From Sciscionella sediminilitoris (GTDB taxonomy: Bacteria; Actinomycetota; Actinomycetes; Mycobacteriales; Pseudonocardiaceae): DNA of 64,000 nucleotides. This document shows positions 16,886 through 32,807 of the stretch, piece by piece; the first letter of the stretch is position 1; each line of letters begins with the position of its first letter. Position numbers and translations under genes: made by a program. The stretch lies in contig NZ_JALM01000024.1 in the NCBI RefSeq assembly GCF_000737195.2, positions 1-64,000 of the forward strand, given 5' to 3'. The notes beneath the pieces are model-generated. The model saw only the letters and a program-made list of their open reading frames with translations, ran no database searches and was not told where the DNA came from.

Positions 16886-17644
16886 ATGGCGATCACGTCC
16901 GGCGGTCCGGCAGGCTCGCCGGGTATGGACATCCGCGACCGGTACCGCCCGATGCTCTGGAACACGCCGTTGTCCGAGCAGCATGCCTCCGTACTGCTCG
17001 GCGAACTCGACGCACGCGATGGACAGCGCATCGTCGACCTGGGATGTGGCTGGGGCGAACTGCTCCTGCGCGCGCTCGAACTGGCGGGACCGCGGGCGCA
17101 CGGTGTCGGCATCGAATCGGAACCCGCGCATCTCGACCGTGCCCGCGAACTCGCCGAGAGCCGTGATCTGAGCGCACAGCTCGAATTTCACACCGGCGAT
17201 GCGAGCGAATGGCGCGGGACGGCGGACCGAGTGCTGTGCATCGGCTCGACACACGCCTATGGCGGCCTCGGCGGCACACTCCAAGCCTGCGCCCGCATTC
17301 TCCCCGCCGACGGCCGCCTGCTCATCGGTGAGGGCTACTGGCTACGCCCGCCCCCTTCGCGGGCTCGGGAGATTTTCGGCGAGGAACTCGGCACACTCGA
17401 GGAACTGCTCGCCCGCTGCCGCGCGGCAGGCTGGCGGATCATGCACAGCAGCACGACCGATCAGCAGGAGTGGGACGAGTTCGAAGCCGCCTCAATGCGC
17501 GGACCGCAACGGTGGTGTGCCGAGAATCCCGGCGACCACACGGAAATCCGCGAATGGATCACCGAACGGAAGCGGACCTATCACGAGGTCTACCGCGGTG
17601 TACTCGGCTTCGCCTATCTCGTACTGGCCGCCGAACAGGACTGA
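16886..17644 (+). CDS. Class I SAM-dependent methyltransferase
   Basis: About 252 residues from ATG 16886 (ATG 16925 is an alternative). The AdoMet site DLGCGWGELLLRALELAG and the acidic GIESEPAHLDRARELAE lie in the first third. The second half (STTDQQEWDEFEAASMRG, ENPGDHTEIREWITERKR) matches a common actinobacterial stand-alone methyltransferase type whose substrate is unknown. It lies directly upstream of the peptide cassette on the same strand, but a promoter separates them, so its membership in that system is open. Confidence 0.85.
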   Translation: MAITSGGPAGSPGMDIRDRYRPMLWNTPLSEQHASVLLGELDARDGQRIVDLGCGWGELLLRALELAGPRAHGVGIESEPAHLDRARELAESRDLSAQLEFHTGDASEWRGTADRVLCIGSTHAYGGLGGTLQACARILPADGRLLIGEGYWLRPPPSRAREIFGEELGTLEELLARCRAAGWRIMHSSTTDQQEWDEFEAASMRGPQRWCAENPGDHTEIREWITERKRTYHEVYRGVLGFAYLVLAAEQD

Positions 17645-17680: not shown

Positions 17681-17710
17681 TTGACCTTTCCTTGGGAATA
17701 TTCATACCTG
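17681..17710 (+). promoter_or_regulatory. Promoter of the small-peptide gene
   Basis: TTGACC (17681-17686), an 18-base spacer and TACCTG (17705-17710) fit a housekeeping sigma promoter. The predicted start lies about 40 bases before the ribosome site of the peptide gene. The local A+T content is higher than in the flanking genes. Confidence 0.6.
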
Positions 17711-17755
17711 CTGGCATCGCCTGCCAGTGAAACCCTCTCCCCAAGGAGGCCCCTG

Positions 17756-17881
17756 ATGAACGAGTTGATCGCCAAGATCGCCGAGGACCACACCTGGAGC
17801 AAGTGGGTCGCGGAGAACTCCGCGCAGGGCGAAGCGAAGGACGGCTGCATCTCATTGCCGAAGCAGGGCTGCATCAGCTAG
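17756..17881 (+). CDS. Putative RiPP precursor peptide with twin GCIS repeats
   Basis: A 41-residue peptide from ATG 17756 with an excellent ribosome site AAGGAGG at 17743-17749. The N-terminal part (MNELIAKIAEDHTWSKWVAE) is helix-prone and leader-like. The C-terminus reads DGCIS, LPKQ, GCIS: two identical GCIS tetrads with the only cysteines, C31 and C39, and the last Ser as the C-terminus. A hairpin follows, then an adenylate-forming enzyme, a small protein and an exporter. This is the pattern of a ribosomally made, modified and exported peptide. I know of no described family with this tail. It is too short for many gene callers. Confidence 0.75.
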   Translation: MNELIAKIAEDHTWSKWVAENSAQGEAKDGCISLPKQGCIS

Positions 17882-17892
17882 CCATGTCCTGT

Positions 17893-17920
17893 GGGGCCGC
17901 GGATGCTCTTCCGCGGCCCC
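17893..17920 (+). terminator. Attenuator hairpin after the precursor gene
   Basis: Stem GGGGCCGCGGA / TCCGCGGCCCC (11 bp) with a 6-base loop, 12 bases after the peptide stop and 36 bases before the next gene. With no T-tract it is probably a partial terminator, giving more precursor than enzyme transcript, as in many peptide clusters. Confidence 0.7.
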
Positions 17921-17955
17921 ATCACCCATCGCAGGCCCGATGACGAGAAGGCGGG

Positions 17956-19200
17956 ATGCCGATGCACGGCCAGCCGGATGCCAAGACTCGCGAGCGAATC
18001 CGCGACATCCCGATCTACCGTGATTCCCTTGAGCGTGGTCATTTCCCGATACTGGAGAAGACCGAGATCGCGCGTGGATTCCCGGAAAACTGGATGACCC
18101 CGCGGTTGGCCGAGGCCCTGGAAGCAGGCGAGGCCGAGTTCGTACTCTCCACCGGGACCAATCACGCGCGCATGCAGTTGATCCGCCCGCCCTACTTTCT
18201 GCTCAAGTCGTATTACCGGCTCTGGAGCGAACATCCCGATATCGCGCACACCTGGCGGGAACAGTGCAAGCGAGTCTCACTGACCACGGTGCTCGCGACC
18301 GAGCACATCGCCCGGGTCAATGCCAAAAAGCACGGCACTCAACCGGATGCACGTCCCGCACTCGCCGATCGCTGGCTCGATGAGCGGACGGTGTACCTGA
18401 ACCTCGACCTGGACCCGGCACTATGGGACCGGCCGACCGTGGAACGCATGCTCGAGGAGATTTCCCTGGTCGCCGCGAGCCTGCCGAGCGGGAACTACCA
18501 CCTCGACTGCTCCAGCTACCACCTGGCACATCTCGTCCGCAAGGTCGATGAATGGGGCTTGTGGTCGCGTTTTCCCGCTCCGGCGAGCATCATCCACGCC
18601 TACGAGTTCACCCCCGCCAATGTCCGCCGGTTCCTCGGACGGTTCTTCGACTGCGCGATCATCGATCTGTTCGGCAGCACCGAGCTCGGCTATCTGTACT
18701 ACAGCGACCGGAACGGGAACTATCACCCGTTCCTCGAGGAGATGGGCGTCGAACTCGTTCCGGTGGCCCCAGGCTCGACGATCCACAGCATCATCGTCTC
18801 CAGCGTGCGAAACCCTTATATGCCACTGATTCGGTACCGCTCCGGCGATTGCGCACGCACCAGGGACGGGAGCGCCGATCCCGCGCGGATCACTCAGTTC
18901 TGCGGCCGCGAGAAGGAACTCCTGTGGCCGGACAACGGTCTGGGGCCGGTCTCCCAAGGCGATCTGGACGGCTGGATCAGCGCGACGAGCCCGGACATCT
19001 TCACCTATCGACTGCACACCGACGGGAAATCCGCGGTACTGCGCTACACGAGCTTCGACGGTTTCGCGATCGAGCAGTCGGACATCGAGACGCTACGCGC
19101 GAAGTTTCGGAACGAGACCGGAATACCGTGCCAGCTCGAGCATGCGGCGCACATCCCCATCGGCACATCCGGCAAGTACGCCTGGATCGCGAACGAGTAG
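17956..19200 (+). CDS. PaaK/LuxE-like adenylate-forming enzyme
   Basis: A 414-residue protein from ATG 17956. ANL-superfamily signatures in the PaaK/CapK/LuxE style are visible: the phosphate loop STGT (65-68), the aromatic/acid motif DLFGSTE (237-243), PLIRYRSGD (290-298), CGRE (316-319) and a C-terminal TSGK with Lys407. Such enzymes activate a carboxylate as an acyl-AMP and pass it to a thiol or amine. Lying between a cysteine-containing peptide and an exporter, it could activate the peptide carboxyl end for ring closure, or load an acyl group on the peptide. Which of these is unknown. It is shorter than full PaaK in the C-terminal subdomain. Confidence 0.82.
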   Translation: MPMHGQPDAKTRERIRDIPIYRDSLERGHFPILEKTEIARGFPENWMTPRLAEALEAGEAEFVLSTGTNHARMQLIRPPYFLLKSYYRLWSEHPDIAHTWREQCKRVSLTTVLATEHIARVNAKKHGTQPDARPALADRWLDERTVYLNLDLDPALWDRPTVERMLEEISLVAASLPSGNYHLDCSSYHLAHLVRKVDEWGLWSRFPAPASIIHAYEFTPANVRRFLGRFFDCAIIDLFGSTELGYLYYSDRNGNYHPFLEEMGVELVPVAPGSTIHSIIVSSVRNPYMPLIRYRSGDCARTRDGSADPARITQFCGREKELLWPDNGLGPVSQGDLDGWISATSPDIFTYRLHTDGKSAVLRYTSFDGFAIEQSDIETLRAKFRNETGIPCQLEHAAHIPIGTSGKYAWIANE

Positions 19201-19213
19201 CAAGGAGAAAGTC

Positions 19214-19711
19214 ATGCCGCACAACGAAACCCCTGACCTCCGGGAATCGCTCGGCGCGCAGCTCCATGACGAGCTGGTCGACTACTTCACCGAGAAAACC
19301 GGGCACGAGCCCGGATTCGTGCAACGTCAGGTCCTCGAATGCCTTCGGTACCTTTATCTCGTGTCCAAGTACCGCGAGGAGCTCGGCGGGCTTTTCCTTC
19401 CCGTGGAACAGGAAATCGATGAGATCTGGCACTACCTGATCCTGCAGACCAGGGAGTACGCGTCGTTCTGCGCACGGCTGCCGGGCGGGATGTTCATCCA
19501 TCACCGCAGCATTTCCTATGAGAACTACCAACAGCAGCCGAGCCGCGAACAGCTCGCCGAGCAGGCGCTGCGCTGGCTTCCGCTCTACCGCGCGGAGTTC
19601 GGTCCCTTTGACGAGGGCGCGCTACCGCACTGGACCATGGTGCGCTTCCTGCACGAGCAGCTGTCGATGTCGCTCGAGGAGATCGCCGCGCTCGATGCCG
19701 CCAACGCCTGA
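19214..19711 (+). CDS. Glycine-rich-domain-like (GRDP/DUF1399-like) small protein
   Basis: A 165-residue protein from ATG 19214 (AAGGAGA upstream). The core IDEIWHYLILQTREYASFC (residues 68-86, with D69 and H73) and FIHH (H96, H97) recall the conserved DxxWHxHIxxTxxY...F.HH pattern of GRDP/DUF1399-type proteins. No catalytic role is established; the conserved His and Asp suggest metal or ligand binding. It lies 13 bases after the adenylating enzyme and overlaps the exporter gene by 17 bases, so it is part of the same operon and perhaps a modification or peptide-binding partner. Confidence 0.7.
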   Translation: MPHNETPDLRESLGAQLHDELVDYFTEKTGHEPGFVQRQVLECLRYLYLVSKYREELGGLFLPVEQEIDEIWHYLILQTREYASFCARLPGGMFIHHRSISYENYQQQPSREQLAEQALRWLPLYRAEFGPFDEGALPHWTMVRFLHEQLSMSLEEIAALDAANA

Positions 19712-21119
19712 CCGTTCGTGCATCTCGGCGATCGGCCTCGGTTCGGCCAGCACGGCCATTCTCGTTCCGATGATGGACGCGTTCATCGTGAACGTCGCCC
19801 TCCCGACCATCGCTGCGGAATTGCCTGCCGGTGCGACCGCTCTCGAACTCGTCATCGCCGGTTACGGGATAGCGTTCACCGTGCTGCTGGTACTCGGTGG
19901 CCGGCTCGGCGACCGATTCGGGCGCCGCCGGATCCTGTTGCTCGGCCTGCTGGGGTTCACCGCGAGCTCACTACTGTGCGGTCTCGCCGGGAACGCGCCC
20001 ATGCTGATCGCGGCTCGTCTTGCCCAGGGGGCGTTCGCCGCGCTCATCCCGCCGCAAGTACTCGGCACGATCCAGGCGGCGACGAGCGGACCCCGGCGCA
20101 CCCGCGCGATCAGCCGCTATTCGGCGGTCACCGGTATCTCCGCGACACTCGGGCTCGTTCTCGGCGGGTTGTTGTTGCACCTGGACCTCGGCGGAACTTC
20201 CTGGCGGAGCCTGTTCCTGATCAACATCCCGATCGGTCTGGTCTTGGCCGTGCTGATCCGGCGTACGGTCCCGGAGACACGCGCCGGGGAACCGGCCGGA
20301 ATCGACGGCAAGGGGACGGTACTGCTCGCCGGTCTGTTGCTCGCCCTGCTCGTTCCGTTCAGCTTCGGCCAAGGTTCGGGCTGGCCGATCTGGAGTCTCC
20401 TGCTGTTGGTGGCCGCCGTACCACTGGCCCTCGTATTGTGGCGGACCGAGCGCGCGGTCACCGCGACCGGTCGGCTCGCTCTGCTGCCGCCTGCCCTGCT
20501 CGGCGAACCGCGGGTGTACCGCGGTCTGCTACTGCTCGCACCGTTTCTGGCCGCGGGCGCGGGATTCCTGTACGCGTTCCCGATCACCGTGCAGGGCGGG
20601 CTCGGGCTCAGCCCACTGGCGAGCGGGCTCGCGGTCGCCCCGATGTCACTGGCCTTCTTTCTCGGCAGCTATGGCGTTCCCCGGCTGGTGCGCGTTCTGG
20701 GACCACGCATCCTCGGGGCCGGAACACTCGTCCAGGCCGGTGGGCTCGCCCTGGTTGCCTGCGTCTTCTGGTTCTGGTCCGGACAACCGCCCGGCCTTGC
20801 CATCGTGCCCGGCATGATCCTCATCGGTCTCGGGCAGGCGCTCGCCATCAGTGGAACCAACACCCTCGTCCTCGCCGCCGTGCCCACCGAACTCGGCGGC
20901 GTGGGCGGCGGCATCCTCATCACCGCCCAACAAGCGGCGATGGCACTCGGCACGGCGCTACTCGGCGGCGTCTACACCGAATCCGCACACAGCAACGGAT
21001 TCGTTCCGGCCTTCGTTCTTGTCATGATCGTGCAAATCGGCATCGCACTCGTGATCGCCGCACTGATACTGATCAGGCACCCACGAGATGTGACACACCT
21101 CATTACCGAGGAGAGCTGA
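19695..21119 (+). CDS. MFS transporter, DHA2 (EmrB/QacA) type
   Basis: About 474 residues from ATG 19695, overlapping the preceding gene. Roughly 14 hydrophobic segments are visible. Diagnostic stretches are MMDAFIVNVALPTIAAEL in the first helix, GGRLGDRFGRRRILLLGL (motif A) and the drug/proton motif C-like SATLGLVLGGLLL. It should export a small molecule using the proton gradient; by position, the product of the peptide cassette, and it may also give self-protection. A hairpin shared with tRNA-Ala ends the operon. Confidence 0.9.
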   Translation: MPPTPDRSCISAIGLGSASTAILVPMMDAFIVNVALPTIAAELPAGATALELVIAGYGIAFTVLLVLGGRLGDRFGRRRILLLGLLGFTASSLLCGLAGNAPMLIAARLAQGAFAALIPPQVLGTIQAATSGPRRTRAISRYSAVTGISATLGLVLGGLLLHLDLGGTSWRSLFLINIPIGLVLAVLIRRTVPETRAGEPAGIDGKGTVLLAGLLLALLVPFSFGQGSGWPIWSLLLLVAAVPLALVLWRTERAVTATGRLALLPPALLGEPRVYRGLLLLAPFLAAGAGFLYAFPITVQGGLGLSPLASGLAVAPMSLAFFLGSYGVPRLVRVLGPRILGAGTLVQAGGLALVACVFWFWSGQPPGLAIVPGMILIGLGQALAISGTNTLVLAAVPTELGGVGGGILITAQQAAMALGTALLGGVYTESAHSNGFVPAFVLVMIVQIGIALVIAALILIRHPRDVTHLITEES

Positions 21120-22404: not shown

Positions 22405-22492
22405 GTTTAGTTTCTGTTAGTTTTTCGCCGAAAATAGCGTGAATACGAAATTCGCTGCTTGTTTCACGTTGAACCAGCGACGACCCGGCTGA

Positions 22493-22759
22493 TCAGCTGC
22501 CCGTGCGCTCCCGGTGCTTGCACCCCGGCCAGCAGCACGGACGACGCTTCCCTTCCGCAAGCTCCTCCCGGGTCCGGCGGATGCGGCGTTCCCGGGTCGC
22601 CTCCTGCTTGGCGTCCTCGACCCAGCAGATGAACTCGTTGCGGGCGAGCGGCGTGATGTCGGCCCAGGCATCGAGCGCCACGGCATCCGCGAGGAGCGCG
22701 TGCTCCAGATCCGTGGGCAGTTCGTGCACCACTCCACCGGCCACCCGTGTGCTGCTCAC
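22493..22759 (-). CDS. YdeI/OmpD-associated family protein, short form
   Basis: An 88-residue protein from GTG 22759. The sequence PTDLEHALLADAVALDAWAD, ITPLARNEFICWVEDAKQEATRERRIRRTREELAEGKR (in parts) is the C-terminal YdeI/OmpD-associated (bacteriocin-protection type) domain. It ends with CCWPGCKHRERTGS, a cysteine-rich tail seen in actinobacterial versions. Full proteins are larger, so this is either a compact variant or a truncated one. Confidence 0.75.
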   Translation of the reverse strand: MSSTRVAGGVVHELPTDLEHALLADAVALDAWADITPLARNEFICWVEDAKQEATRERRIRRTREELAEGKRRPCCWPGCKHRERTGS

Positions 22760-22785
22760 CGCACCAGAATACGGGAGGAACGCGA

Positions 22786-22819
22786 AAACCCCCGCTGTCG
22801 TATCGGACAGCGGGGGTTT
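22786..22819. terminator. Former tRNA-Ile terminator, displaced by the integrated element
   Basis: A 14-bp perfect stem (AAACCCCCGCTGTC and its complement) with a 6-base loop and A/T flanks. It ends 4 bases before the partial tRNA copy (attL). Before integration it would have stood just behind tRNA-Ile, so it is probably the original tRNA terminator. It also lies 27 bases upstream of the YdeI-like gene start. Confidence 0.7.
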
Positions 22820-22822
22820 GCA

Positions 22823-22867
22823 GGGTGGGCCTACCAGGACTTGAACCTGGGACCTCTTCGTTATCAG
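22823..22867. other. Left attachment site (attL), 45-bp tRNA-Ile 3' duplicate
   Basis: GGGTGGGCCTACCAGGACTT through to TTATCAG is identical to 32700-32744, the 3' half of tRNA-Ile including the T arm and part of the anticodon arm. It diverges at 22868, so it is not a functional tRNA. It marks the left end of the integrated element. Confidence 0.95.
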
Positions 22868-22980
22868 GAAACGGTTGGCCGTCGCGGGCGTCTCATGATC
22901 AACAGGCATATGCACACTGACCTGCGCGTGGACCTTCGCACCGTCTCACCCTGCTCGGGTGTTCCGGTCCGTACCAACCC

Positions 22981-23004
22981 GTCTTGTTAGCAAATCCGTT
23001 AGCA
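22981..23004. repeat. 24-bp direct repeat, left arm-type site
   Basis: GTCTTGTTAGCAAATCCGTT plus AGCA, identical to 32595-32618 in the same orientation. In the circular element the two would flank attP, as integrase or excisionase arm sites do. It contains an inner TTAGCA pair. Confidence 0.7.
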
Positions 23005-23296
23005 GACTCCCCCATCCCCTTCGTCCCTGCTACTCGCTTCGCCTCGCGGTGGCCGGGTCCAGGGTGAGCGTCAGCTCATCGCGCAGCGACGCCGAACGGC
23101 GCCCTTGATGCGGCTGCCACGAGGTAAGACGATCCCTGGCGAAGGGCTGCGGTTGATCTACAACCGAGCTTCTGACACTGTTTCGGCGGGGCAACCCTGT
23201 CAGTGAATATCAGTGGATATCCGCGAATATTCACTGACTCTCCAGGGCCAGCCTCCCCTTCAGATACCGGGTTTCCGAGCTGAAGGGATCGAGCTC

Positions 23297-23494
23297 ATGT
23301 TCATGTGGGCCGTCGTCGCTGGTTACAGTCTCTTGCTGGTTCTCGCCGCAGGTTCTGCAACTGCCGCGATATTCGCCAAGAAGCATCGCCGCGAGCATGC
23401 GGTGAAGGTCTACAAGATCACCGCTGCCGTACTCACCAGCGTGTTCGCCTTGCTCTTCGCACTCGCGCGCCTCCACGTCTGGCCTACACCGTGA
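23297..23494 (+). CDS. Small AICE membrane protein
   Basis: A 65-residue protein from ATG 23297 (an in-frame GTG at 23213 would lengthen it). It has two hydrophobic helices (WAVVAGYSLLLVLAAGSATA and TAAVLTSVFALLFALARL) around a basic loop KKHRREHAVKVYK. It may be a Spd-like spread or conjugation accessory protein, but no family is recognised. Confidence 0.55.
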   Translation: MFMWAVVAGYSLLLVLAAGSATAAIFAKKHRREHAVKVYKITAAVLTSVFALLFALARLHVWPTP

Positions 23495-23642
23495 CCCGTT
23501 GGCCGCTGGCGCTTGCGTCGGCGGGCGTCGATCGCCCCGACCACGCTTGCCCGCTCGAGCTGCCTCGCGATCGTCCCGTCTGGGGTGGGCTGGTCGCCGT
23601 GTCTTGGGTCTGATGGTTCACGTGCGAAGTGAGCAGAGCATC

Positions 23643-23683
23643 GGCCCGGCCGCCGGGAGCGTCAGCGGGAGGCGGGCCGGGCC
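23643..23683. repeat. GC-rich imperfect inverted repeat in the AICE
   Basis: GGCCCGGCCGCC and GGCGGGCCGGGCC pair with one bulge. It lies in the 246-base gap between the small membrane protein and the phosphotransferase gene, where I see no reading frame with good support. It could be a terminator or a transfer/replication site. Confidence 0.4.
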
Positions 23684-23740
23684 TCGGCGGCGCGCAGCGC
23701 CGCCCTTGATCCAATAGAGCCGAATTCGGCAAGAAGTCCG

Positions 23741-24562
23741 CTAAACCCTGGCGGCGCGGGCGATGTTCAGCCAGGTATGCACGCGGTCGGCGGGGCATCC
23801 GACTTCGGCGGCGAGCTGGTCGGCCAGGGCATGCGGGGCGCAGTGTAGGGCTGGGGCGGTTTTGAGGGCGAAGACGGCGAGGTCGTAGGCGAGTTCGCCG
23901 TTCATGCCGCGTGGGTCGATCCACTGCAACCGGCCGTCCGCGCCGACGAGGATGTTGTCGGGATGCGCGTCGCCGTGGGTCAGTTCGCGGCGTTCGTCCT
24001 GGCGGATGTCGGTGAGCTGGTGGGCTGCGCTGCGGCGTTCGTCCTCGGTGACGTTGTAGTCGTCCGGGGGTAGGTCGTCGGGTTCTGGGCCGGTGAGCCG
24101 GTCGTGCAGCCACTCGGCGATGTTGGGTGCATTCGGTGCGGGGCTCGGCTGTTCGGCCATCGCGCGGAAGATCGGGGCGACCGTCGGCACCACGTCGTCG
24201 CCGAGGTTGATCGGTTCACCGGGTACTACCCGATCCGCGACCGTCCATGTGCCGGTGTCGGTCTGGTTGACCTCGTGGACCGCAGGACCGATCCGGTGCT
24301 CGGCGAACGCCTCCGCGAACCGCGCCTGATCGGGTCCGGCCGGGTCAGCCGTCGACCTCATAACCAGCGGGCCGGTCGGTGTGGTGACTGCGACGACGAA
24401 CCCGGTTCGGGCTGGAAAGACTCTTTCCGCCTGGCCCTCGTAGCGAGCGACAAGCTCGTCCAGCTCGGCGGGTGCTCGACTGGTCCATGCCTCGGCACGC
24501 TCGGGCCAGCGTCGCCGAACGTTCACGGCAACCTCGATGGGAACCTGGGCGGCGGGTGTCAT
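23741..24562 (-). CDS. Aminoglycoside phosphotransferase-like kinase (AICE cargo)
   Basis: A 273-residue protein from ATG 24562, overlapping the HAD gene as ATGA. The APH/choline-kinase fold is shown by HGDAHPDNILVGADGRLQW, with the HGDxHxxN catalytic loop and the following IDPRG metal site. It resembles streptomycin/hygromycin 6-phosphotransferases, but AICE versions of this trio are of unknown substrate and resistance is not proven. Confidence 0.85.
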   Translation of the reverse strand: MTPAAQVPIEVAVNVRRRWPERAEAWTSRAPAELDELVARYEGQAERVFPARTGFVVAVTTPTGPLVMRSTADPAGPDQARFAEAFAEHRIGPAVHEVNQTDTGTWTVADRVVPGEPINLGDDVVPTVAPIFRAMAEQPSPAPNAPNIAEWLHDRLTGPEPDDLPPDDYNVTEDERRSAAHQLTDIRQDERRELTHGDAHPDNILVGADGRLQWIDPRGMNGELAYDLAVFALKTAPALHCAPHALADQLAAEVGCPADRVHTWLNIARAARV

Positions 24563-25242
24563 ACCCGAGCTTCGGGCGCGAGCTTTGCGGCAACGCTGGT
24601 GATGATCACGTCCGCGTTCACGAGCGTGCGCTCTTTGCCGGGCTTGTTCGCGTACCCGATCACCGGGCACCCGGCCGAGCGAGCGGCCTCGACGTCGGTC
24701 GGTGAGTCCCCGATCAGCACCGCCTCGGCGGGCGCGACGTGGAAGTGAGTCAGGGCCTGGTCGAGCAGCCAAGTCCGCGGCTTGAGCTGTTCCGGGTCCT
24801 CGCTGGTCCGCGCGGCGATGTGGTCCACGTACCGGTGCAGTCCGTGCAGATCCAGGTAGGCGCGCACGGCGTGGGCACTGTTGTTGCTGACGATCGCGAG
24901 CTCGCGGCCCGCGCGCTTCCATGCCCTGATCAGCTCGTGCGCGCCTGGCGCTGGTGTAGCGGTCGCGATCGCTTCGACCTCGTGCGCGGTAAACGCCGCG
25001 TTGACCATCCGCGCGTCCTCATCGGAGACGGTAGCGGCGTAGCGGAACACGTCGAACGGATCGGTTGCGGCGGCCACGGGTTCGGGAAAGTCGACATGTC
25101 GACCATCGGCGAGAACGTCGCGCAACTGCTCGGCGACCACATCGGCCGGGAACCCGGCGAACACCGAGCACACCGGGCCGTCGAAGTCGAGCAGCAGCAA
25201 CCGTGCACGTTCGAGGAGTTCGCGAGCCTGTGCCTCGGTCAT
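24559..25242 (-). CDS. HAD family hydrolase (AICE cargo)
   Basis: A 227-residue protein. Motif I LLLDFDGPV carries the nucleophile Asp, motif II is VSNNS, motif III LKPR and motif IV IGDSPTD. The cap lies between residues about 30 and 100, the PGMB/phosphatase type. It overlaps its neighbours by 4 bases on both sides and forms an operon GntR-HAD-kinase. A phosphatase and a kinase in one unit suggest a shared phosphorylated metabolite, which is inference. Confidence 0.9.
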   Translation of the reverse strand: MTEAQARELLERARLLLLDFDGPVCSVFAGFPADVVAEQLRDVLADGRHVDFPEPVAAATDPFDVFRYAATVSDEDARMVNAAFTAHEVEAIATATPAPGAHELIRAWKRAGRELAIVSNNSAHAVRAYLDLHGLHRYVDHIAARTSEDPEQLKPRTWLLDQALTHFHVAPAEAVLIGDSPTDVEAARSAGCPVIGYANKPGKERTLVNADVIITSVAAKLAPEARV

Positions 25243-26081
25243 CGCACGTACTCGTGGGCGATCGTGGACCAGATGCTTTCGAACCAGGTCCGGGACTGCT
25301 CGACGTACTGCGATCCGGTCGAGGTGTCGTCGTCGTTCGCCGAGTGGTGGAACAGGATGGCGTCCTTGCCCATCAGGTCGTACATGGCTTCGGTCTCGCC
25401 GTTGTAGCTGATCGCGCGCTCGCGCACCGGATAGAAGCCGAAGAACGCTTCCTCGTTGTTGATCAAGTACAGCTTGAACAGCGGCGCGGCCGGGTGGACC
25501 CGGACCTGTGCGGACGCTGTGTTGACCAGGCCCAGTTCTCCGAGTTCATTGACCTCGTCGATCGTGGCGAGCGTGTGGCGACGCATGATCTCCTCGGCGC
25601 GCTTGCGGAAGTTCGGGCTGTCCGCGTGTCCGTCCACAGTGCACGGCAGCGACCAGGGCTCGGCCGGATCGGGAACCAGGAGTCGGACCGTGACCGACTC
25701 GGGTCGCAGCCTGCCGACCCGGATCTTGTCGAGTGGTTCGGTGAGGATGCCGTGCAGGGTCTCACCGGAGAACCCCGCGAAGTCGATAGTCACGTTCTCG
25801 GCCTCGAACGCGCGCTCGACGTGGGGGCGGAGGCCGACCGGGCTTTCCGTGCGCTCGCGGACGAAGACACCGCTCCCCTGCCGCGAAACGATCAGGCCCT
25901 CTTCGCGCAGCTCACGTAGGGCGTTCTGCACGGTCATCGGCGCTACGTTGTAGGTCTTCGCCAGTTCTGCCCGCGACGGCAACTTGTCCCCGGCGCTGAA
26001 CTTCTTGGTCAGGATCGCGGCTCGTAGCGCGTTCGCGACCTGTACATACGGCGGTCGTGGATCGTCCGGGTCTAGCGCCAT
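25239..26081 (-). CDS. GntR family transcriptional regulator (KorSA-like)
   Basis: A 280-residue regulator from ATG 26081 (ribosome site CGAGGG seven bases upstream). An N-terminal winged helix (PPYVQVANALRAAILTKKFS, GDKLPSRAELAKTYNVAPMT, GSGVFVRE) is followed by a UTRA-like ligand domain of about 190 residues. In pSAM2-type elements a GntR protein of this kind represses the pra activator gene. Here it is divergent from the Pra-like gene, with a palindrome between, so the same silencing of excision and transfer is likely. Confidence 0.9.
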   Translation of the reverse strand: MALDPDDPRPPYVQVANALRAAILTKKFSAGDKLPSRAELAKTYNVAPMTVQNALRELREEGLIVSRQGSGVFVRERTESPVGLRPHVERAFEAENVTIDFAGFSGETLHGILTEPLDKIRVGRLRPESVTVRLLVPDPAEPWSLPCTVDGHADSPNFRKRAEEIMRRHTLATIDEVNELGELGLVNTASAQVRVHPAAPLFKLYLINNEEAFFGFYPVRERAISYNGETEAMYDLMGKDAILFHHSANDDDTSTGSQYVEQSRTWFESIWSTIAHEYVR

Positions 26082-26116
26082 GATCAACCCTCGCTCGCAT
26101 TTTCCCTGGTCAGCTC

Positions 26117-26134
26117 TTGACGAGTACTCGTCAA
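26117..26134. promoter_or_regulatory. Candidate GntR operator
   Basis: TTGACGAGTACTCGTCAA is a perfect 18-bp palindrome 36 bases upstream of the GntR start. Nearby (26140-26226) several CTAG-containing motifs (CTAGGC, GCTAGC, GCTAGT) recur around the divergent promoter and may be further sites. Confidence 0.65.
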
Positions 26135-26178
26135 ACCCAGTCTAGGCCAGCTAGCGAGCTAGTCACCACCCCTGTTGC

Positions 26179-26207
26179 TTGACTTGGCTAGTCAGGCCGG
26201 CTAGGCT
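26179..26207 (+). promoter_or_regulatory. Promoter of the Pra-like activator gene
   Basis: TTGACT (26179-26184), a 17-base spacer and TAGGCT (26202-26207). The spacer contains a GGCTAGTCAGGCCGGC tract overlapping the repeated CTAG motifs, so a repressor bound there would block transcription. Confidence 0.7.
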
Positions 26208-26276
26208 GTGCATGTCAGGCAAGCTAGGCGGCGGCGAAGAGGGATTCCCCGCGTCGCCGAGGAAGGCAGGAACGCA

Positions 26277-26696
26277 ATGGCTATTCCAGGTGGTTACCGG
26301 TTCCCGGTCCCGTTCGATGACGTGTTCCCGGAGGGCGCGTTCGTGCTCGGCGTGGAGCAGGTCTTCGACTACGACAACAACGGAGGCAAGAGTCCGGCGA
26401 AGGACAAGCAGTCCGGCAAGCTCGTGTGGGGTGTGCAGGTCACCGACCCGTCCGCGCGGGGCAAGAACACCGGTGTCGTGGTGAAGATCGACGCCGACGT
26501 GCAGCCCGTTCCCCCGGAGACCGCGCCCGGCCTGCCGTTCCGTCCGGTCGTGTTCGAGGGACTGACCGCGACCGCGTACGAGCAGAACGGCCGCGTGCAG
26601 TTCTCGTTGCGCGCCAAGGAGATGCACGCACCGGGCAAGGCAACGGGTACGAAATCCGCTGCGGCGCAGGGCAACGCCGAGCAGAAGGCAGCGTAA
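26277..26696 (+). CDS. Plasmid replication, integration and excision activator (Pra-like)
   Basis: A 139-residue protein from ATG 26277. It begins MAIPGGYRFPVPFDDVFPEG and contains KDKQSGKLVWGVQVTD and PVPPETAPGLPFRPVVFEGL, which match the Pra-type activator of pSAM2-like elements as I recall it. Pra switches on rep, xis and int. It is the first gene of the long plus-strand AICE operon. Confidence 0.8.
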   Translation: MAIPGGYRFPVPFDDVFPEGAFVLGVEQVFDYDNNGGKSPAKDKQSGKLVWGVQVTDPSARGKNTGVVVKIDADVQPVPPETAPGLPFRPVVFEGLTATAYEQNGRVQFSLRAKEMHAPGKATGTKSAAAQGNAEQKAA

Positions 26697-26968
26697 TGGC
26701 GGGGCGGCCGTCACGGGAGGCGGTCGCTCGGTGGAACACCGCCTATGCCGAGCAGACGACCGCACTATTCACCGCGATGCGTAGCGGCGATGCAGGTGAT
26801 GTGCGGCGTCTGGCTCGGGCCTACCAATCCGTTGCGGAAGCGTGGCGAATTCTGGCGGGTGACCTCAACGCACCGTTATGGGCACGCCATGCCGCGTCCG
26901 TCGCTTCCGAAGAATTCGACCTCCGCGCACAGCTCGAAACCGTTCGCGCGGATTCGGTCCAACGATAG
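26696..26968 (+). CDS. Small AICE protein, unknown
   Basis: A 90-residue, mostly helical protein (MAGRPSREAVARWNTAYAEQ, RLARAYQSVAEAWRILAGDL). Its ATG shares a base with the Pra-like stop (TAATG), so it is coupled to that gene. No family is recognised. Confidence 0.75.
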   Translation: MAGRPSREAVARWNTAYAEQTTALFTAMRSGDAGDVRRLARAYQSVAEAWRILAGDLNAPLWARHAASVASEEFDLRAQLETVRADSVQR

Positions 26969-26984
26969 CCGAAGGGAGGTAATC

Positions 26985-27239
26985 ATGCACGGTAGTTGGC
27001 GGGTGGCGTGGGCTTCACGAACGTTGCCGGAAGCGTGCCGGGCACTGCTGGGTCTCCTGCCGGATCGGGGCGCAGATGCGACGGTTCTGCGGGACTACTA
27101 CAAGGAAAGCGCGAAGCTCTACCGGCACATGGTCGAGGTCGACCCGGAGCATAAGCACGAAGCTCGGGCGCTGGCATGGGTTGATACGCAGCGAGCGGAG
27201 TCTTACGCGAAACTCGCCGCCAGCGAATCACAAGGCTAG
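26985..27239 (+). CDS. AMED_5909 family protein
   Basis: An 84-residue protein from ATG 26985 with ribosome site GGGAGG. WRVAWASRTLPEACRALLGL, DYYKESAKLYRHMVEVDPEH and HEARALAWVDTQRAESYAKL match the AMED_5909 type, a small protein common on Pseudonocardiaceae mobile elements and of unknown function. Confidence 0.75.
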   Translation: MHGSWRVAWASRTLPEACRALLGLLPDRGADATVLRDYYKESAKLYRHMVEVDPEHKHEARALAWVDTQRAESYAKLAASESQG

Positions 27240-27391
27240 AAGAAATTCAACGCACTGAATGAATAACGCACGTTTCGACGTGTGGCGATGAAACGCGTCC
27301 TTGAAACGGTCGCGGATTCCGTAAAGGCGCAGAAGCGGGACATGGCTACCAACCTCGCCGCCTCTGCGCTATCCACTCACTGGAGCAGACA

Positions 27392-27751
27392 ATGAAAACC
27401 CTAAACAATTCTCGTGAAGCAATGTCAAGCGGGGTCACCGGAACGGGGTGCCCGTCGGTGGCCGAGTTGGTTCGTCGTGGCCTGGATCGGTGCGAAGAGA
27501 TTCGACCGAGCTACCGTCCAAACAGGACACCCGAGCAGCGGTTGCGCGATCTGCGGAAGGCAGCGGCCTGCTACCGGCGCGAGGCTCGCTGGTGGGATCT
27601 GCTGATCGCTCGGGCGATCGACTCGTCCGAGTTGCCGTGGGCGTATGTCCGGGCCGCGATCAAGGCGAGTTCGGCGGCCGCGCGGACAGCCGACCGGTAC
27701 GACGAACTCGCGGCGAACGCTGCTGCGCGTCTGTCGGGTGGTGGTCGGTGA
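27392..27751 (+). CDS. AICE protein of unknown function upstream of traSA
   Basis: A 119-residue helical protein (PSVAELVRRGLDRCEEIRPS, AACYRREARWWDLLIARAID) ending in a Gly-rich tail. Its TGA stop shares a base with the translocase ATG, so it is co-translated. No family is recognised. The 152 bases before it hold weak hairpins only. Confidence 0.75.
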   Translation: MKTLNNSREAMSSGVTGTGCPSVAELVRRGLDRCEEIRPSYRPNRTPEQRLRDLRKAAACYRREARWWDLLIARAIDSSELPWAYVRAAIKASSAAARTADRYDELAANAAARLSGGGR

Positions 27752-29313
27752 TGAGTCTGTGGAATGAGGTTGTCGACCGGGATGCGGGTTGGCAGGACAT
27801 CACCGTCCGCAAGGGCAAGGACCATCCCGAAGGTATCCGCGGTTGGATCGCCTGGGCCGTTCGGCAGGTAGCGAAGCTGATCGGCGTGCTGATCACCTGC
27901 GCAGTGCTGTTCGCGGTTGCGTGTCCGATCCTGGCCGCGCCGATCCTCGGTGTGCTGTGGCTGCTGTTCACGGGCATGCCGTGGTCGGCGCTCGTGGTCC
28001 TCGGCGTCGCCCTGGTGGGTTTCGGGTTGTGGTTCTGGTTCTCCCCGGACTCGTTCGATGCCCGTGTGGTGTCGGGTTGCCGGTGCTGGGTCCGGCGCCT
28101 GCGCTACCGCTACCGGTGGACCGACACCATGGTCGGCGCCAAGCTGACGGTGAAGGACAAGAAACGCCGCGAACTGGCACCCCGGATCACCCGTGTTCGG
28201 CAGTCCCGGTTTGCTGATGTGCTCACGGTTCGGTTACCGCTCGGCCTGACCCGCGAGTCCTTCACGGATCGGCTCGCGGCAGTGGTCGAGGGCATGGGCG
28301 CGCAGGAAGCTCGGCTTGTTGCTGCTCCGGCTCGCAGTGTTCCGTCGTGGCTGGTGGCCCGGCGTGCGCTGGAGTTCGCCGACACCACGAACCGGTGCGT
28401 GTACATGCAACTCTCCTACGGGGATCCGCTGGTACGCACCCTCACCCCGAACGGTCCCGATGACGGCGGCAACGGGGGCGGTTCCCGAACTGCGGACTTT
28501 TCCGCAGTACAGATCGGCAAGCGTGATGACGGTCGGCCGTGGTTCCTGTCGCTGCTGGGCACGCACATCTTGTTGGCCGGGGCGACGGGTTCGGGGAAGG
28601 GCTCGGTGCTGTGGTCCCTGCTGGCCGGGCTCGGCCCCGCCATCCGTGACGGTCTCGTGCAGGTTGTCGGCGTGGACCCGAAGGGCGGTATGGAACTCGG
28701 CTACGGCCGTGAACTGTTCCGCGAGCTCGTGACCATGGACGGTGCGGACGCGCAACAGGGTGCGGTGGAGTTCCTGGAAAAACTCGCCGATGAGGCCGAC
28801 CGCCGCGCTTCCCTGCTGGCCGGGCACGCGCGCAAGCTCGAACCGAGCACGGACATGCCGTTCATGGTGATCGTCCTCGATGAGTTGGCCTCGCTGACCG
28901 CGTTCATCGCCGACTCCAAGCTACGAGCACGCGCGGAGGCTGCCCTCGGGCGCCTGCTGACGAAGGGCCGTGCTCCGGGCATGTGCGTGATCGGGGCGAT
29001 TCAGGACCCTCGCAAGGAGGTCGTGAAGTGGCGTGATCTGTTCCCGACCCGCATCGCGCTGCGCCTGGTCGAGCGCTCCCACGTGGACATGGTGCTCGGC
29101 GATGGTGCCCGCGAACGTGGCGCGAAGTGCGACCACATACCCGAAACAGCTCCCGGTGTCGGCTACCTGGTCGAAGACGGAACCCGCGCCATCACTCGGG
29201 TTCGCGCCATGTACCTCTCCGACGCCGATATCCGTCGAGTCGCCACCACCTATCAGCCCGGCCCGGTCGTGGCCGCTCCCCTGCGCGTCGTTGAGGGCGG
29301 TGAGGCGGCATGA
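27751..29313 (+). CDS. FtsK/SpoIIIE-like DNA translocase (TraSA/TraB type)
   Basis: A 520-residue protein. Two hydrophobic segments lie near residues 43-100 (VLITCAVLFAVACPILAAPI, ALVVLGVALVGFGLWFWF). The motor domain has Walker A GATGSGKGS (277-285) and Walker B MVIVLDELA (372-380). Proteins of this size form the single-protein conjugation pore motor of AICEs, moving double-stranded DNA between hyphae. It overlaps repSA by ATGA. Confidence 0.93.
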   Translation: MSLWNEVVDRDAGWQDITVRKGKDHPEGIRGWIAWAVRQVAKLIGVLITCAVLFAVACPILAAPILGVLWLLFTGMPWSALVVLGVALVGFGLWFWFSPDSFDARVVSGCRCWVRRLRYRYRWTDTMVGAKLTVKDKKRRELAPRITRVRQSRFADVLTVRLPLGLTRESFTDRLAAVVEGMGAQEARLVAAPARSVPSWLVARRALEFADTTNRCVYMQLSYGDPLVRTLTPNGPDDGGNGGGSRTADFSAVQIGKRDDGRPWFLSLLGTHILLAGATGSGKGSVLWSLLAGLGPAIRDGLVQVVGVDPKGGMELGYGRELFRELVTMDGADAQQGAVEFLEKLADEADRRASLLAGHARKLEPSTDMPFMVIVLDELASLTAFIADSKLRARAEAALGRLLTKGRAPGMCVIGAIQDPRKEVVKWRDLFPTRIALRLVERSHVDMVLGDGARERGAKCDHIPETAPGVGYLVEDGTRAITRVRAMYLSDADIRRVATTYQPGPVVAAPLRVVEGGEAA

Positions 29314-30953
29314 CCACCGAGGAACCGACCCCGATCCGCAAGATCATGGCACCGCTCGCCCGTCAGTTGGCCGAGTCGGCCGCTGAACAGGTCGGTGCCT
29401 GCGTCCGGCCGTTCGCGGTGCGCCGGATCGACAACGAGACCGGCGAGAAGATCGTGATCCCGATCCCCTGCGGCTCAACGAGGACGAGCGTGTGCCCCTC
29501 GTGTGCGGTGCGGGCGAAGCGGTTGCGGATGCACCAGGCCCGCGAAGGCTGGCACCTCACCGAGGAACCACGGATCGAGACCGAGGAACCGACGGTGCAT
29601 CAACAGGCGATGCTCGGTCAGATCGCGGATCTCACCGAGGCTCGTGCGCACGCCGACGCGTCCGGGGACACCGCTCGTTCCGCGGCGCTCTCGGCCGAGA
29701 TCGACCAGGCCGAACAAGTCCTGCGGCACAACGGAATCCGCGGTTCGATGCCGACCGAGGAGAACGAGCGCCAGGAGGAGAAACCGAAACGGGCACGCTC
29801 GACGCGCCGTCGTCAGGATGCGCCGAACCTGCCCCGGCAGAAGGTCGCCGACACCACGACCGGGCGCGTGTACGAGGCACCGGACGGGAAAACCTACCGG
29901 CCCTCGACGTTCGTCACGCTCACCCTGCCCTCGTACGGGCGGGTGCACGGCGATGGCACCCCGGTTGATCCAGACTCGTATGACTACCGGTCGGCGGCAC
30001 GGGATGCGATCCACTTCGGCTCGCTGGTGGACCGGTTCTGGCAGAACCTGCGCCGCGCAGCCGGGTGGAACGTGCAGTACTTCGCGGCCGTGGAACCACA
30101 ACGGCGGTTGGCGATGCACCTGCACGCGGCCGTGCGCGGCACCATCCCCCGCAAGCTCATGCGCCAGGTCGCCGAGGCCACCTATCACCAAGTCTGGTGG
30201 CCCGAACACGACGAACCCCTGTACACCAACGAACTGCCGGTGTGGGACGAGCAAGCGGAAACCTACGTCGATCCCCACACCGGTGCCCGTCTGTCCACAT
30301 GGGACGAAGCGATCGAGGCCACCTTCGACCAGAACGCGCGTCCCGCGCACGTGGCACGGTTCGGGCACCGGGGTATCGACGTGCAAGGCGTAGTCGGCAA
30401 CTCGGAGAAATCCGGGAAATGCCTCGGCTACCTCGTCAAGTACCTGACCAAGGACATCGGCGAGGTCTACGAACCCGACAGCACTCGGCAACGCCAGCAC
30501 ATGGACCGGCTCGCCGACACCATGCGCTACCAGCCCTGCCACGAGACATGCGCGAACTGGCTGCGCTACGGCATCCAACCCAAGAACGCCAAGGCGGGCA
30601 TGGTTCCCGGACAGTGCCGCCGCAAGGCACACCGCCCCACGAACCTCGGCTACGCGGGCCGCCGCTGCCTGGTCTCCCGCAAATGGTCCGGGCGCAACCT
30701 CGCCGAACACCGCACCCAACGCCGCGAACACGTCCTCCGTGTCCTCGGTGCAGCCGGAGCCAACGTTCAGCAATCCACCGAGGAAGACCCGGAAGGAACC
30801 CGCTACCGGTGGGAACCCATCCACACCGGAGATCCCGACCAGCCCAACCGAACCGACCTGCTGCTGCGCAGCATCGCCCAACAACGCCGCTGGCGACACC
30901 AATACGACCAAGCCAAACACTCAGCAACCGAGACCGAAGGGAGGGCGGCATGA
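29310..30953 (+). CDS. Replication initiator, RepSA-like rolling-circle type
   Basis: A 547-residue protein. The N-terminus has a zinc-like CPSC preceded by CGSTRTSVC. The HUH-type metal motif MHLHAAVRG (H270, H272) is followed by YLVKYLTK (Y374, K377, Y378), a nicking-tyrosine motif. This matches RepSA of pSAM2-like elements, which starts rolling-circle replication after excision. It overlaps the translocase and excisionase genes by 4 bases each. Confidence 0.9.
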   Translation: MTTEEPTPIRKIMAPLARQLAESAAEQVGACVRPFAVRRIDNETGEKIVIPIPCGSTRTSVCPSCAVRAKRLRMHQAREGWHLTEEPRIETEEPTVHQQAMLGQIADLTEARAHADASGDTARSAALSAEIDQAEQVLRHNGIRGSMPTEENERQEEKPKRARSTRRRQDAPNLPRQKVADTTTGRVYEAPDGKTYRPSTFVTLTLPSYGRVHGDGTPVDPDSYDYRSAARDAIHFGSLVDRFWQNLRRAAGWNVQYFAAVEPQRRLAMHLHAAVRGTIPRKLMRQVAEATYHQVWWPEHDEPLYTNELPVWDEQAETYVDPHTGARLSTWDEAIEATFDQNARPAHVARFGHRGIDVQGVVGNSEKSGKCLGYLVKYLTKDIGEVYEPDSTRQRQHMDRLADTMRYQPCHETCANWLRYGIQPKNAKAGMVPGQCRRKAHRPTNLGYAGRRCLVSRKWSGRNLAEHRTQRREHVLRVLGAAGANVQQSTEEDPEGTRYRWEPIHTGDPDQPNRTDLLLRSIAQQRRWRHQYDQAKHSATETEGRAA

Positions 30954-31216
30954 GTACCAACGTTGCGGCAGCGATGGAGATGCTGGCTCAGGCCCTGACC
31001 GAGCAGCAGCAACCAGCACCGGAACCCGTGGTGGCCGAATCGGTGTTCGACGGGCTTCCGGCGTTCGTTCCGGTCACGCAGGTCGCGAGCCTGCTCGGCA
31101 TCAGCCGGGCCTCGGCCTACCGGTATGCGGCCTCGGGTGAGCTTCCGGCAAAGCGGATCGGGAAACGCGTGCTTGTCGTTCGTGACCAGCTCCGCGCGTG
31201 GATGGAGGCCGCGTAA
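30950..31216 (+). CDS. xis: Excisionase, MerR-like helix-turn-helix
   Basis: An 88-residue protein. The C-terminal half, FVPVTQVASLLGISRASAYR followed by ELPAKRIGKRVLVVRDQLRA, is the HTH_17 excisionase fold. It would bend the att region and turn the integrase toward excision. The stop shares a base with the integrase ATG. Confidence 0.88.
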   Translation: MSTNVAAAMEMLAQALTEQQQPAPEPVVAESVFDGLPAFVPVTQVASLLGISRASAYRYAASGELPAKRIGKRVLVVRDQLRAWMEAA

Positions 31217-32589
31217 TGGCCGAGCAGAAGAAGCGGCGGGACAAGAACGGCATCAACGGCGGCGTCTACCAGCGCGGGAAGAAGTGGGGCTACGTCCTCG
31301 ATATCGGCCACGACCCACTGACCGGGAAGCGCAAGCAGCAGACCAAGGGTGGTTTCACGACCGAAGGTGACGCCTGGGATGCCCTGGTCGAAGCGAATAC
31401 CGCGCTGAAAACGAAGAAGTTCGTCAAACCGTCGAAGCGGACGGTCGCCGAGTTCTTCGCCGAGTGGTTCCCCGCCGTGAAGCTCTCGCTCAAGACCACG
31501 ACGTTCGGCAACTATCAGAACTACGCGAACGCGTATGTGCTGCCGATCATCGGGAACCGTCAACTTCAGCAGATCGAGACGGACACGATCACCAAGCTGT
31601 GGTCCTACCTCGCCGAGAAGGGACGGGTGAAGGGCGACTCGAACCAGCGCATGTACGAACACTGGAAGAAGGTCACCGAGGCCGGGCAGAAGGTTGCGCT
31701 CGCCGAGCTGGCCGAGGCCGGTGGGGTGACCTACAGTGCGGCGTCCAAGGCTGCGGCACGGTATCGGGCCGGACGTATCCCGAAGGAGTACTCGTCCTCG
31801 CTGGACAACACCACGATTCAGAGTGTGCGGATCATGCTGCATCGCGCGTTCGAGGATGCGGTGGCGTGGCAGTACATGGAGGCGAACCCGGTATCGGACG
31901 CGGTGCGTGTCCGGCGTACACACAAAGTGCACAGCACCTGGACCCCCGAACAGCTCAAGGCGTTCTTGGCCGAGGCTCGTCGAGAACGGCTGTACGCGAT
32001 GTGGTTGATGTTCGCCACGACCGGTGTCCGTCGCGGTGAGGCGGCCGGAGCTATGCGGCACCTGCTCGTTCCGGCTCGCAAGATCATCACCGTGTGGGAT
32101 ACGCGTGTGGTCGCGAACGGGAAAGTCGTGGATTCAGACGGCAAGTCGAAGAACTCGCGCCGCCACCTCGCGCTCGACAAGCGCACGATCGCCGAGCTGG
32201 CGAACCACACCGCGATGCTCGACCAAGAGCGCAAGGACCATGGTGCGGACTACGAGGACAACGGGCTGTTGTTCTGCTGGCCGGACGGTTCGCCGATCTA
32301 TCCGGAGACGATCAGCGATCAGTTCGACCGGCTCGTGGACCGTGCGGGTGTGCCGATCATCACGCTGCACGATGTGCGGCACACCTACGCCACCATGTCT
32401 CTGCGGGCCGGGGTGAATCCGAAGATCGTCAGTGCCCGGCTCGGCCACGCCTCGGTGTCGTTCACGCTCGACATGTACACCGAGGACGTCCCCGAGCTGC
32501 ACCACGCTGCGGCCGAGACCGTGTCCGACCTGTTCCTTGAGCCGGATGAGGACGATGAGACGGCCGATCCCCCGATTGACCTGCCGTAA
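31216..32589 (+). CDS. int: Site-specific tyrosine integrase
   Basis: A 457-residue recombinase. It begins with a basic arm-binding region (GGVYQRGKKWGYVLDIGHDP) and a SAM-like core-binding domain (TVAEFFAEWFPAVKLSLKTT). An insert of about 55 residues (near 155-205, including VTYSAASKAAARYRAGRIPK) lies in the core-binding domain. Catalytic residues are R272 (TGVRRGE), H385 and R388 (LHDVRHTYAT) and Y421 (DMYTED). It inserts the element into the tRNA-Ile 3' end 110 bases downstream. Confidence 0.95.
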   Translation: MAEQKKRRDKNGINGGVYQRGKKWGYVLDIGHDPLTGKRKQQTKGGFTTEGDAWDALVEANTALKTKKFVKPSKRTVAEFFAEWFPAVKLSLKTTTFGNYQNYANAYVLPIIGNRQLQQIETDTITKLWSYLAEKGRVKGDSNQRMYEHWKKVTEAGQKVALAELAEAGGVTYSAASKAAARYRAGRIPKEYSSSLDNTTIQSVRIMLHRAFEDAVAWQYMEANPVSDAVRVRRTHKVHSTWTPEQLKAFLAEARRERLYAMWLMFATTGVRRGEAAGAMRHLLVPARKIITVWDTRVVANGKVVDSDGKSKNSRRHLALDKRTIAELANHTAMLDQERKDHGADYEDNGLLFCWPDGSPIYPETISDQFDRLVDRAGVPIITLHDVRHTYATMSLRAGVNPKIVSARLGHASVSFTLDMYTEDVPELHHAAAETVSDLFLEPDEDDETADPPIDLP

Positions 32590-32594
32590 TGCGG

Positions 32595-32618
32595 GTCTTG
32601 TTAGCAAATCCGTTAGCA
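32595..32618. repeat. 24-bp direct repeat, right arm-type site
   Basis: Identical to 22981-23004 and in the same orientation, 6 bases after the integrase stop and 82 bases before attR. Confidence 0.7.
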
Positions 32619-32659
32619 ATCGGGCCAGCGCCGCCGACAACCGAATACCCCGGAAAGGC

Positions 32660-32695
32660 AAGAACCCCGCGACCGTGCTGGTCAGCGGGGTTCTT
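32660..32695 (+). terminator. Terminator after integrase, beside tRNA-Ile
   Basis: AAGAACCCCGC/GCGGGGTTCTT, an 11-bp stem with inner GACC/GGTC pairing. It ends the integrase transcript and, read the other way, replaces the original tRNA terminator now lying at 22786. Confidence 0.8.
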
Positions 32696-32699
32696 GTTG

Positions 32700-32744
32700 G
32701 GGTGGGCCTACCAGGACTTGAACCTGGGACCTCTTCGTTATCAG
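32700..32744. other. Right attachment site (attR) within tRNA-Ile
   Basis: The 45-bp copy identical to 22823-22867. It supplies the 3' half of tRNA-Ile so that the gene stays whole after integration. Confidence 0.95.
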
Positions 32745-32776
32745 CGAAGCGCTCTAACCGCCTGAGCTATAGGCCC
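32703..32776 (-). tRNA. ileT: tRNA-Ile (GAT anticodon), AICE target
   Basis: A 74-base tRNA on the minus strand from GGGCCTATAGCTCAG to TAGGCCC with discriminator A; the loop CTGATAA gives anticodon GAT. CCA is not encoded (ACCC follows). It lies just downstream of gyrA and the DUF3566 gene, the conserved actinobacterial site. Confidence 0.97.
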
Positions 32777-32807
32777 TGGAGACAGCCAACAGCTTAGCGT
32801 ACGGCTC

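Follow-up and report, generated by a model that had tools for sequence, protein, structure and literature searches.

We analyzed a stretch of 64,000 nucleotides from Sciscionella sediminilitoris (contig NZ_JALM01000024.1, positions 1 to 64,000; hereafter the window) and found in it a conserved operon of the kind that makes ribosomally synthesized and post-translationally modified peptides (RiPPs). Four genes follow one another on the + strand: (i) a precursor gene of 41 codons encoding MNELIAKIAEDHTWSKWVAENSAQGEAKDGCISLPKQGCIS (17756..17881; ATG at 17756, stop at 17879-17881); (ii) a putative PaaK-type adenylate-forming ligase of 414 residues (17956..19200), assigned from motifs and profile matches; (iii) a 165-residue protein, modeled as all-helical, with a DEIWH...C...H motif (19214..19711); and (iv) a major facilitator superfamily (MFS) exporter (19695..21119), whose gene overlaps that of the small protein. 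The precursor consists of a leader, MNELIAKIAEDHTWSKWVAENSAQGEA, and two core units, KDGCIS (17837..17854) and KQGCIS (17861..17878). The RiPP-like operon is real: in all 61 loci examined, a gene-encoded precursor with leader and core lies beside a putative processing enzyme, the ligase, which would act on the peptide.

The 61 loci are the window and those numbered L014-L019, L022-L025 and L060-L109; one ligase scan of genome contigs supplied six of the Streptomyces loci. For counting we used 58 of them (L062, L081 and L089 were dropped as repeats of L015, L017 and L019, and the near-copies L016 and L077 were retained), comprising 53 from Streptomyces and five of the window's own family (the window and L022-L025). 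Their ligases are 62-69% identical to the window ligase over the best segment, the window itself left out. Strong ligase matches, all at E <= 1e-165, were found in 3 of 60 relatives, 3 of 397 genomes of the order and 7 of 394 of the class, the window's own genome being counted in each set. A ligase profile searched at E 1e-12 against 296 genomes of the phylum matched only the window's own genome, and plasmid records gave no match. Seven further genomes among the 60 relatives had weak, partial ligase matches (best E 1.2e-9, 32% identity). Among sampled Streptomyces, 47 of 392 genomes gave matches of the strong kind and carry the operon, which is seldom seen in the other sets.

A related small open reading frame lies just upstream of the ligase gene in 61/61 loci (58/58 without duplicates). 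A strict pattern, which requires W..W and after it two G[CY][IV]S units, matched 58/58 ligase upstream regions and 0/713 regions upstream of the other genes in these loci, called by a simple in-house gene caller; a looser precursor pattern matched 58/58 and 2/713. The 41-residue gene proposed in an earlier note on this DNA was thus borne out. That note had also said that the link between peptide and ligase would fail if homologous ligases occurred mostly without the small gene. The link survives this test, which reached loci found through ligases in the identity range given above and left more distant ligases outside. The window peptide and that of S. chattanoogensis are 62% identical over 42 columns, and neither a Pfam nor an NCBIfam family matched the peptide. 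A chance reading frame or artefact, for which the short length and the missing family would speak, can be dismissed in view of the 61/61 conservation, the control counts and the excess of synonymous over nonsynonymous change described below.

Aligned, the precursors separate into a conserved leader (consensus roughly MEQLIKKMAQDDVWQxWVAANSA) and distinct core units, as the earlier note had anticipated. Its twin GCIS motif holds for the window; elsewhere two units are the small case (7/58 precursors, against three units in 48 and four in 3). Because xxG[CY][IV]S served as the search pattern for units, their G, I/V and S are fixed by the search itself; among the 170 units of the 58 loci, position 1 was Lys in 169 and Pro in 1, position 4 Cys in 169 and Tyr in 1, and position 5 Ile in 159 and Val in 11. 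The residue after Lys varied among seven kinds (S, D, A, T, N, E and Q). In the L018 precursor the second unit reads SGYIS, with Tyr replacing Cys, and L079 carries a decayed last unit, PGRIS, outside the search pattern. The last unit is more strongly constrained than the leader: proportions of nonsynonymous and synonymous differences (pN and pS) were 0.120 and 0.505 for the last unit (32 distinct sequences) and 0.199 and 0.331 for the leader (52 distinct), the leader's ratio being just moderately low. A free C-terminal CIS is usual without being fixed, since 53/58 precursors stop at the last Ser and five continue for 1-7 residues.

The ligase appears to be a distant PaaK-type adenylating enzyme. 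The motifs that we take to be A3 (STGT) and A10 (G-x-SGK) are present in 58/58 ligases, A5 in 57 and A7 in 56; these, with the catalytic A10 lysine, are the motifs of ANL and PaaK-type enzymes. Family models gave faint matches: no Pfam family was found for the window ligase or, at E 1, for any of seven members; NF045666 (the DVU_1553 AMP-dependent ligase family) matched residues 189-306 at E 2.1e-8 with 33.6 bits against a cut-off of 300; and TIGR02155 (PaaK) reached only 11 bits with the window ligase. A profile of the seven members found ClxA (9s3l; E 5.2e-5), AjiA1 (0.0093), PaaK (0.014) and NatL2 (0.088). An AlphaFold2 model from the seven sequences was poor (mean pLDDT 57, pTM 0.48), and its top Foldseek rows were NatL2, AjiA1, BT_0428 and PaaK1, at E about 1e-8 and a TM-score of about 0.3, from this low-confidence model. 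The LuxE-like label of the earlier note found no backing, as there was no Pfam match for the seven members and no NCBIfam LuxE model for the window ligase. Its broader claim, that an adenylating enzyme is the sole recognizable modifying enzyme of the conserved unit, holds, as does the statement that enzymes of known RiPP classes are missing: when the window's five proteins were scanned against Pfam and NCBIfam, none matched a lanthipeptide, YcaO, radical SAM, ATP-grasp or lasso enzyme (for the methyltransferase and the exporter, among the matches listed).

The fifth of these proteins is the upstream neighbor (16886-17644), an S-adenosylmethionine-dependent methyltransferase. Its match to RiPP_MTase_ApyS was generic (23.4 bits, far below the cut-off of 400), and we rejected it as an operon member because it is present in 1/58 loci, the window alone.

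The small protein is kept in 57/58 loci; the exception, L100, ends 123 bases past the ligase. No Pfam or NCBIfam family exceeded its cut-off. The all-helical model (pLDDT 74.5, pTM 0.70) had no Foldseek match at E 0.001, and VIA-align gave no row at Z >= 5 among 317 chains (best Z 4.1). Residues D69, E70, W72, H73, C86 and H97, among others, are invariant in seven members, and three distant relatives in other genomes share DExWH-x-x-[IV]L-x-TR-x-[YW]-x-x-FC...G...H; fragments of two of these relatives matched no Pfam family. Because the invariant residues recur in part in distant proteins, they suggest a metal or catalytic site. A GRDP-like (DUF1399) identity, as once proposed for this protein, was tried and rejected: the seven members had no PF07173 match at E 10, a search in which program filters remove most matches above about 0.1.

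The exporter is an MFS protein by PF07690 (E 1.2e-40, 140 bits, above cut-off), and its DHA2 subtype is only likely, since TIGR00711 (E 5.9e-37, 127.5 bits) falls under its cut-off of 230.2. The exporter claim of the earlier note stands for the window and varies beyond it: a different MFS family lies directly downstream in 35/58 loci (one a 45-residue match only), and in L024 and L025 the window's MFS type occupies the exporter place on the opposite strand. Family scans in relatives covered one MFS protein, one carbonic anhydrase and one SulP protein. MFS export thus appears frequent, not universal, across the operons.

The precursor gene also has expression signals of its own, as the earlier note had read them. 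A ribosome binding site, AAGGAGG, lies at 17743..17749 (+), by direct reading of the sequence, and upstream of it a promoter-like element, TTGACC-N17-ATACCT, at 17681..17709 (+; TTGACC at 17681-17686, ATACCT at 17704-17709), with CTTGG in the spacer. Pairs of the type TTGAC-N17/18-TTTAC occur in 47/58 upstream regions and TTGAC-N5-7-TTGG in 35/58, where random stretches drawn from these loci would give 0.4 and 0.3 per 58; 50/58 regions have one or the other and 8/58 neither. The window's promoter-like element fits the TTGAC-N5-7-TTGG pattern, not the TTGAC-N17/18-TTTAC one. In the promoter consensus, TTGCC, TTGAC and TTGG are spaced by 11-base steps, an arrangement that we take to resemble the operators of SARP-type regulators; no regulator was found among the gene families that over 13 of the 58 loci have in common, namely those of the ligase, the small protein, MFS, carbonic anhydrase and SulP (hereafter the widely shared families). 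Between the precursor and ligase genes stands an attenuator-like hairpin without a T run (17892..17921, +). The window spacer (17882-17955) folds at -36.6 kcal/mol with z -2.28, a value equaled by 4/200 dinucleotide shuffles, and the best spacer hairpins have z < -1.65 in 48/58 loci (median -40 kcal/mol), a generous z because this test used mononucleotide shuffles and spacers clipped at 110 bases. Attenuation would be the putative role of the hairpin.

These observed parts, namely the conserved operon, the leader/core pattern, the ligase motifs, the promoter pattern and the hairpin, can be joined into one scheme, which we favor tentatively and rate somewhat short of an even chance as a whole: a repeat peptide whose units are acylated directly by the PaaK-type ligase. 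The peptide would be made ribosomally, with a leader of ~20-30 residues around W..W and, behind it, two to four K-x-G-C-[IV]-S units. The ligase would adenylate a small carboxylic acid and transfer its acyl group, with no intermediate carrier, to the invariant Lys (or Cys) in every unit, and the small protein with its DExWH...C...H motif might assist the transfer. A host protease would free the peptide or its units, and export would follow, by the MFS pump in many loci. The hairpin 3' of the peptide gene may hold peptide output above enzyme output.

Several observations argue for direct acylation. The precursor adjoins the ligase in 61/61 loci, with the strict pattern at 58/58 against 0/713 controls; the last unit is under stronger constraint than the leader; all four adenylation motifs are nearly always there; and the window's five proteins gave no match to a lanthionine synthetase, YcaO, radical SAM or ATP-grasp family. 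The same side chains (K 169/170, C 169/170) are kept in internal units as well, whereas the residue after Lys varies. In addition, the near relatives NatL2 and ClxA are PaaK-type enzymes that join acids to a hydroxyl or an amine, and we think acylation of Lys (or Cys) the most likely chemistry. NatL2, according to PMC7204872, belongs to the PaaK family and esterifies a hydroxyl with its acyl-AMP; a C-terminal extension is said to maintain it in a form that is of no use to coenzyme A (CoA). The abstract of PMC12519233 presents ClxA as an amide ligase, which transfers acyl-AMP to an amine or phenol and makes esters too.

Several points weigh against the acylation scheme. The widely shared families include neither an acid-making enzyme nor a protease, so each would need another source. 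Nothing in the ligase obviously corresponds to the extension said to keep CoA out of NatL2, and because the window ligase ends 7 residues past the A10 lysine, it may form a CoA ester instead. In sequence, the ligase resembles ClxA and AjiA1 weakly and over part of its length only, and its model is of the low confidence noted above. Finally, modification of the peptide is inferred.

An alternative is that the ligase activates the C-terminal Ser carboxylate, or that of each unit after cleavage, which would close on Lys or Cys to give a macrolactam or thiolactone. The frequent stop at the last Ser fits this idea, units cut behind Ser would end GC[IV]S, and a six-residue unit with Lys and Ser at opposite ends suits a ring. 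Internal units, however, have no free carboxylate before cutting and yet keep Lys, Gly, Cys and Ser, the protease for such cutting is missing from the widely shared families, five precursors have residues beyond CIS, and the nearest characterized enzymes take small aryl acids. We therefore regard cyclization through Ser as unlikely, and the C-terminal thiolactone suggested in the earlier note is weakened.

The peptide could also be a carrier and not the product, with an acid loaded on the unit Cys (or Lys), processed there and released as a small molecule. Very constant units would suit repeated loading sites, and carrier-peptide systems are known from the PEARL scaffolds. Set against this, several units would be unnecessary and no tailoring enzyme beyond the small protein occurs in the widely shared families, which leaves the carrier idea rather improbable. 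Similarly doubtful to us is an unmodified peptide that buffers metals or thiols, the ligase being a CoA ligase of the same regulon. Most precursors do have two to four Cys, and PaaK relatives are mostly makers of CoA esters, but the peptide adjoins the ligase in 61/61 loci, and its Lys is as constant as its Cys when metal binding by Cys alone would not need Lys.

The operon has partial likenesses to known systems. NatL2 (nataxazole) and ClxA (closoxazole), with AjiA1 among the nearest solved relatives, likewise adenylate their substrates and are about 400-440 residues long; their work is to couple free aryl acids on small-molecule pathways, whereas the ligase gene of the operon is tied to a gene-encoded repeat peptide. 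With the PaaK phenylacetate-CoA ligases and the DVU_1553 family (NF045666) the ligase shares motifs and probably the fold, although family scores are far below cut-off and Pfam gives no match. Multi-core RiPPs combine a leader and repeated cores in one small gene with an operon enzyme and often an exporter, as here; the window's five proteins, though, include no match to a known RiPP enzyme class, and an ANL ligase is the sole recognizable modifier among them. Agr thiolactone peptides are short with a Cys near the C-terminus, as here, but have a single core and an AgrB-type membrane protease, for which the five proteins gave no match. A published description of a repeat-peptide/PaaK-ligase operon was not found in the literature searched, with subscription journals mostly outside it, and we provisionally regard the operon as undescribed. 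The terms 'AMP-dependent' and 'adenylat' are absent from the main text of PMC7794033, and PMC13216219, in its available portion, covers antiSMASH results and docking to human carbonic anhydrases.

Many of the Streptomyces operons have recurring neighbors. In 40/58 loci a beta-carbonic anhydrase gene (PF00484), a SulP transporter gene (PF00916) or both start within ~5.5 kb of the ligase start (anhydrase in 39, SulP in 36; families assigned by a scan of L015 only), and all 40 fall within the 53 Streptomyces loci. They lie downstream on the same strand in 22, upstream on the same strand in 7, and upstream on the opposite strand in 3 (near) and 8 (far). The remaining 18/58 have neither nearby, four of them (L023, L024, L100 and L105) being short at a contig end. 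On the ligase tree, the arrangement labels required 11 changes. A tree was built from 38 anhydrases adjacent to the operon and 40 that are not, the latter hand-picked from genome search lists; in it, the 21 downstream copies formed one clade (100/100) and 8 far-upstream copies another (100/100); the remaining nine adjacent copies were scattered among non-adjacent genes, adjacency needing 7 changes. Of the 27 rows in a broader clade (support 93/95), 26 came from operon-bearing genomes.

We also compared genomes with and without the operon. An anhydrase matching the L018 query at E <= 1e-45 was present in 48/48 tested Streptomyces with the operon (17 + 31 genomes) and 55/101 without it (4/11, 24/49 and 27/41; Fisher p 4e-10), a p value inflated by strain kinship, with a threshold chosen after the results were known and an operon neighbor as the query; the operon-less status of the 24/49 and 27/41 sets was taken from absence in the ligase match list. 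Within the tested set, anhydrases at least 72% identical to the query were confined to genomes that carry the operon. A universal link is contradicted by the window's family, since the pair is not near any of its five loci (two short at a contig end), and among these five genomes only G007 had an anhydrase match at E 1e-45, located elsewhere. Because the window's own family is without the pair nearby, the pair belongs to the Streptomyces branch as an accessory, whether through self-protection, physiological need or a shared chromosomal neighborhood.

Between exporter and anhydrase we also noted proteins that have a hydrophobic segment and Cys in the C-terminal end (LHCVFRC in L015 and L065), encoded at L015:11263-11805 and in 12 other loci, and at L065:8576-9550 and in relatives. 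Divergent and upstream of the operon, at L015:5566-7275 and in 10 other loci (some Streptomyces), lies a protein that combines formyltransferase and enoyl-CoA-hydratase-like parts, HypX-like by eye only.

Elsewhere in the window, positions 22490-32800 resemble an actinomycete integrative element. This block holds a GntR regulator (25239-26087, -), an FtsK/SpoIIIE protein (27748-29313, +) and two open reading frames named by eye, a large replication-initiator-like one (29310-30953, +) and a tyrosine-recombinase-like one (31198-32589, +), the latter ending near a tRNA-Ile (32701-32776, -).

The recurring anhydrase and SulP neighbors are a testable hint at the product's role. In its boldest form, which we consider quite improbable, the operon would represent a new ribosomal peptide class in which a PaaK-type ligase acts on K-x-G-C-[IV]-S repeats, the product would interfere with carbonic anhydrase or bicarbonate supply, and Streptomyces producers would protect themselves with an extra beta-carbonic anhydrase and SulP; if true, such an antibiotic, by depriving competitors of bicarbonate, would have a mode of action that is new. 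The operon occurs in about one in eight sampled Streptomyces, named culture-collection strains among them, so producers should be easy to obtain. If the ligase does act on the peptide, a peptide pathway would have drawn its key enzyme from a superfamily known for activating small acids.

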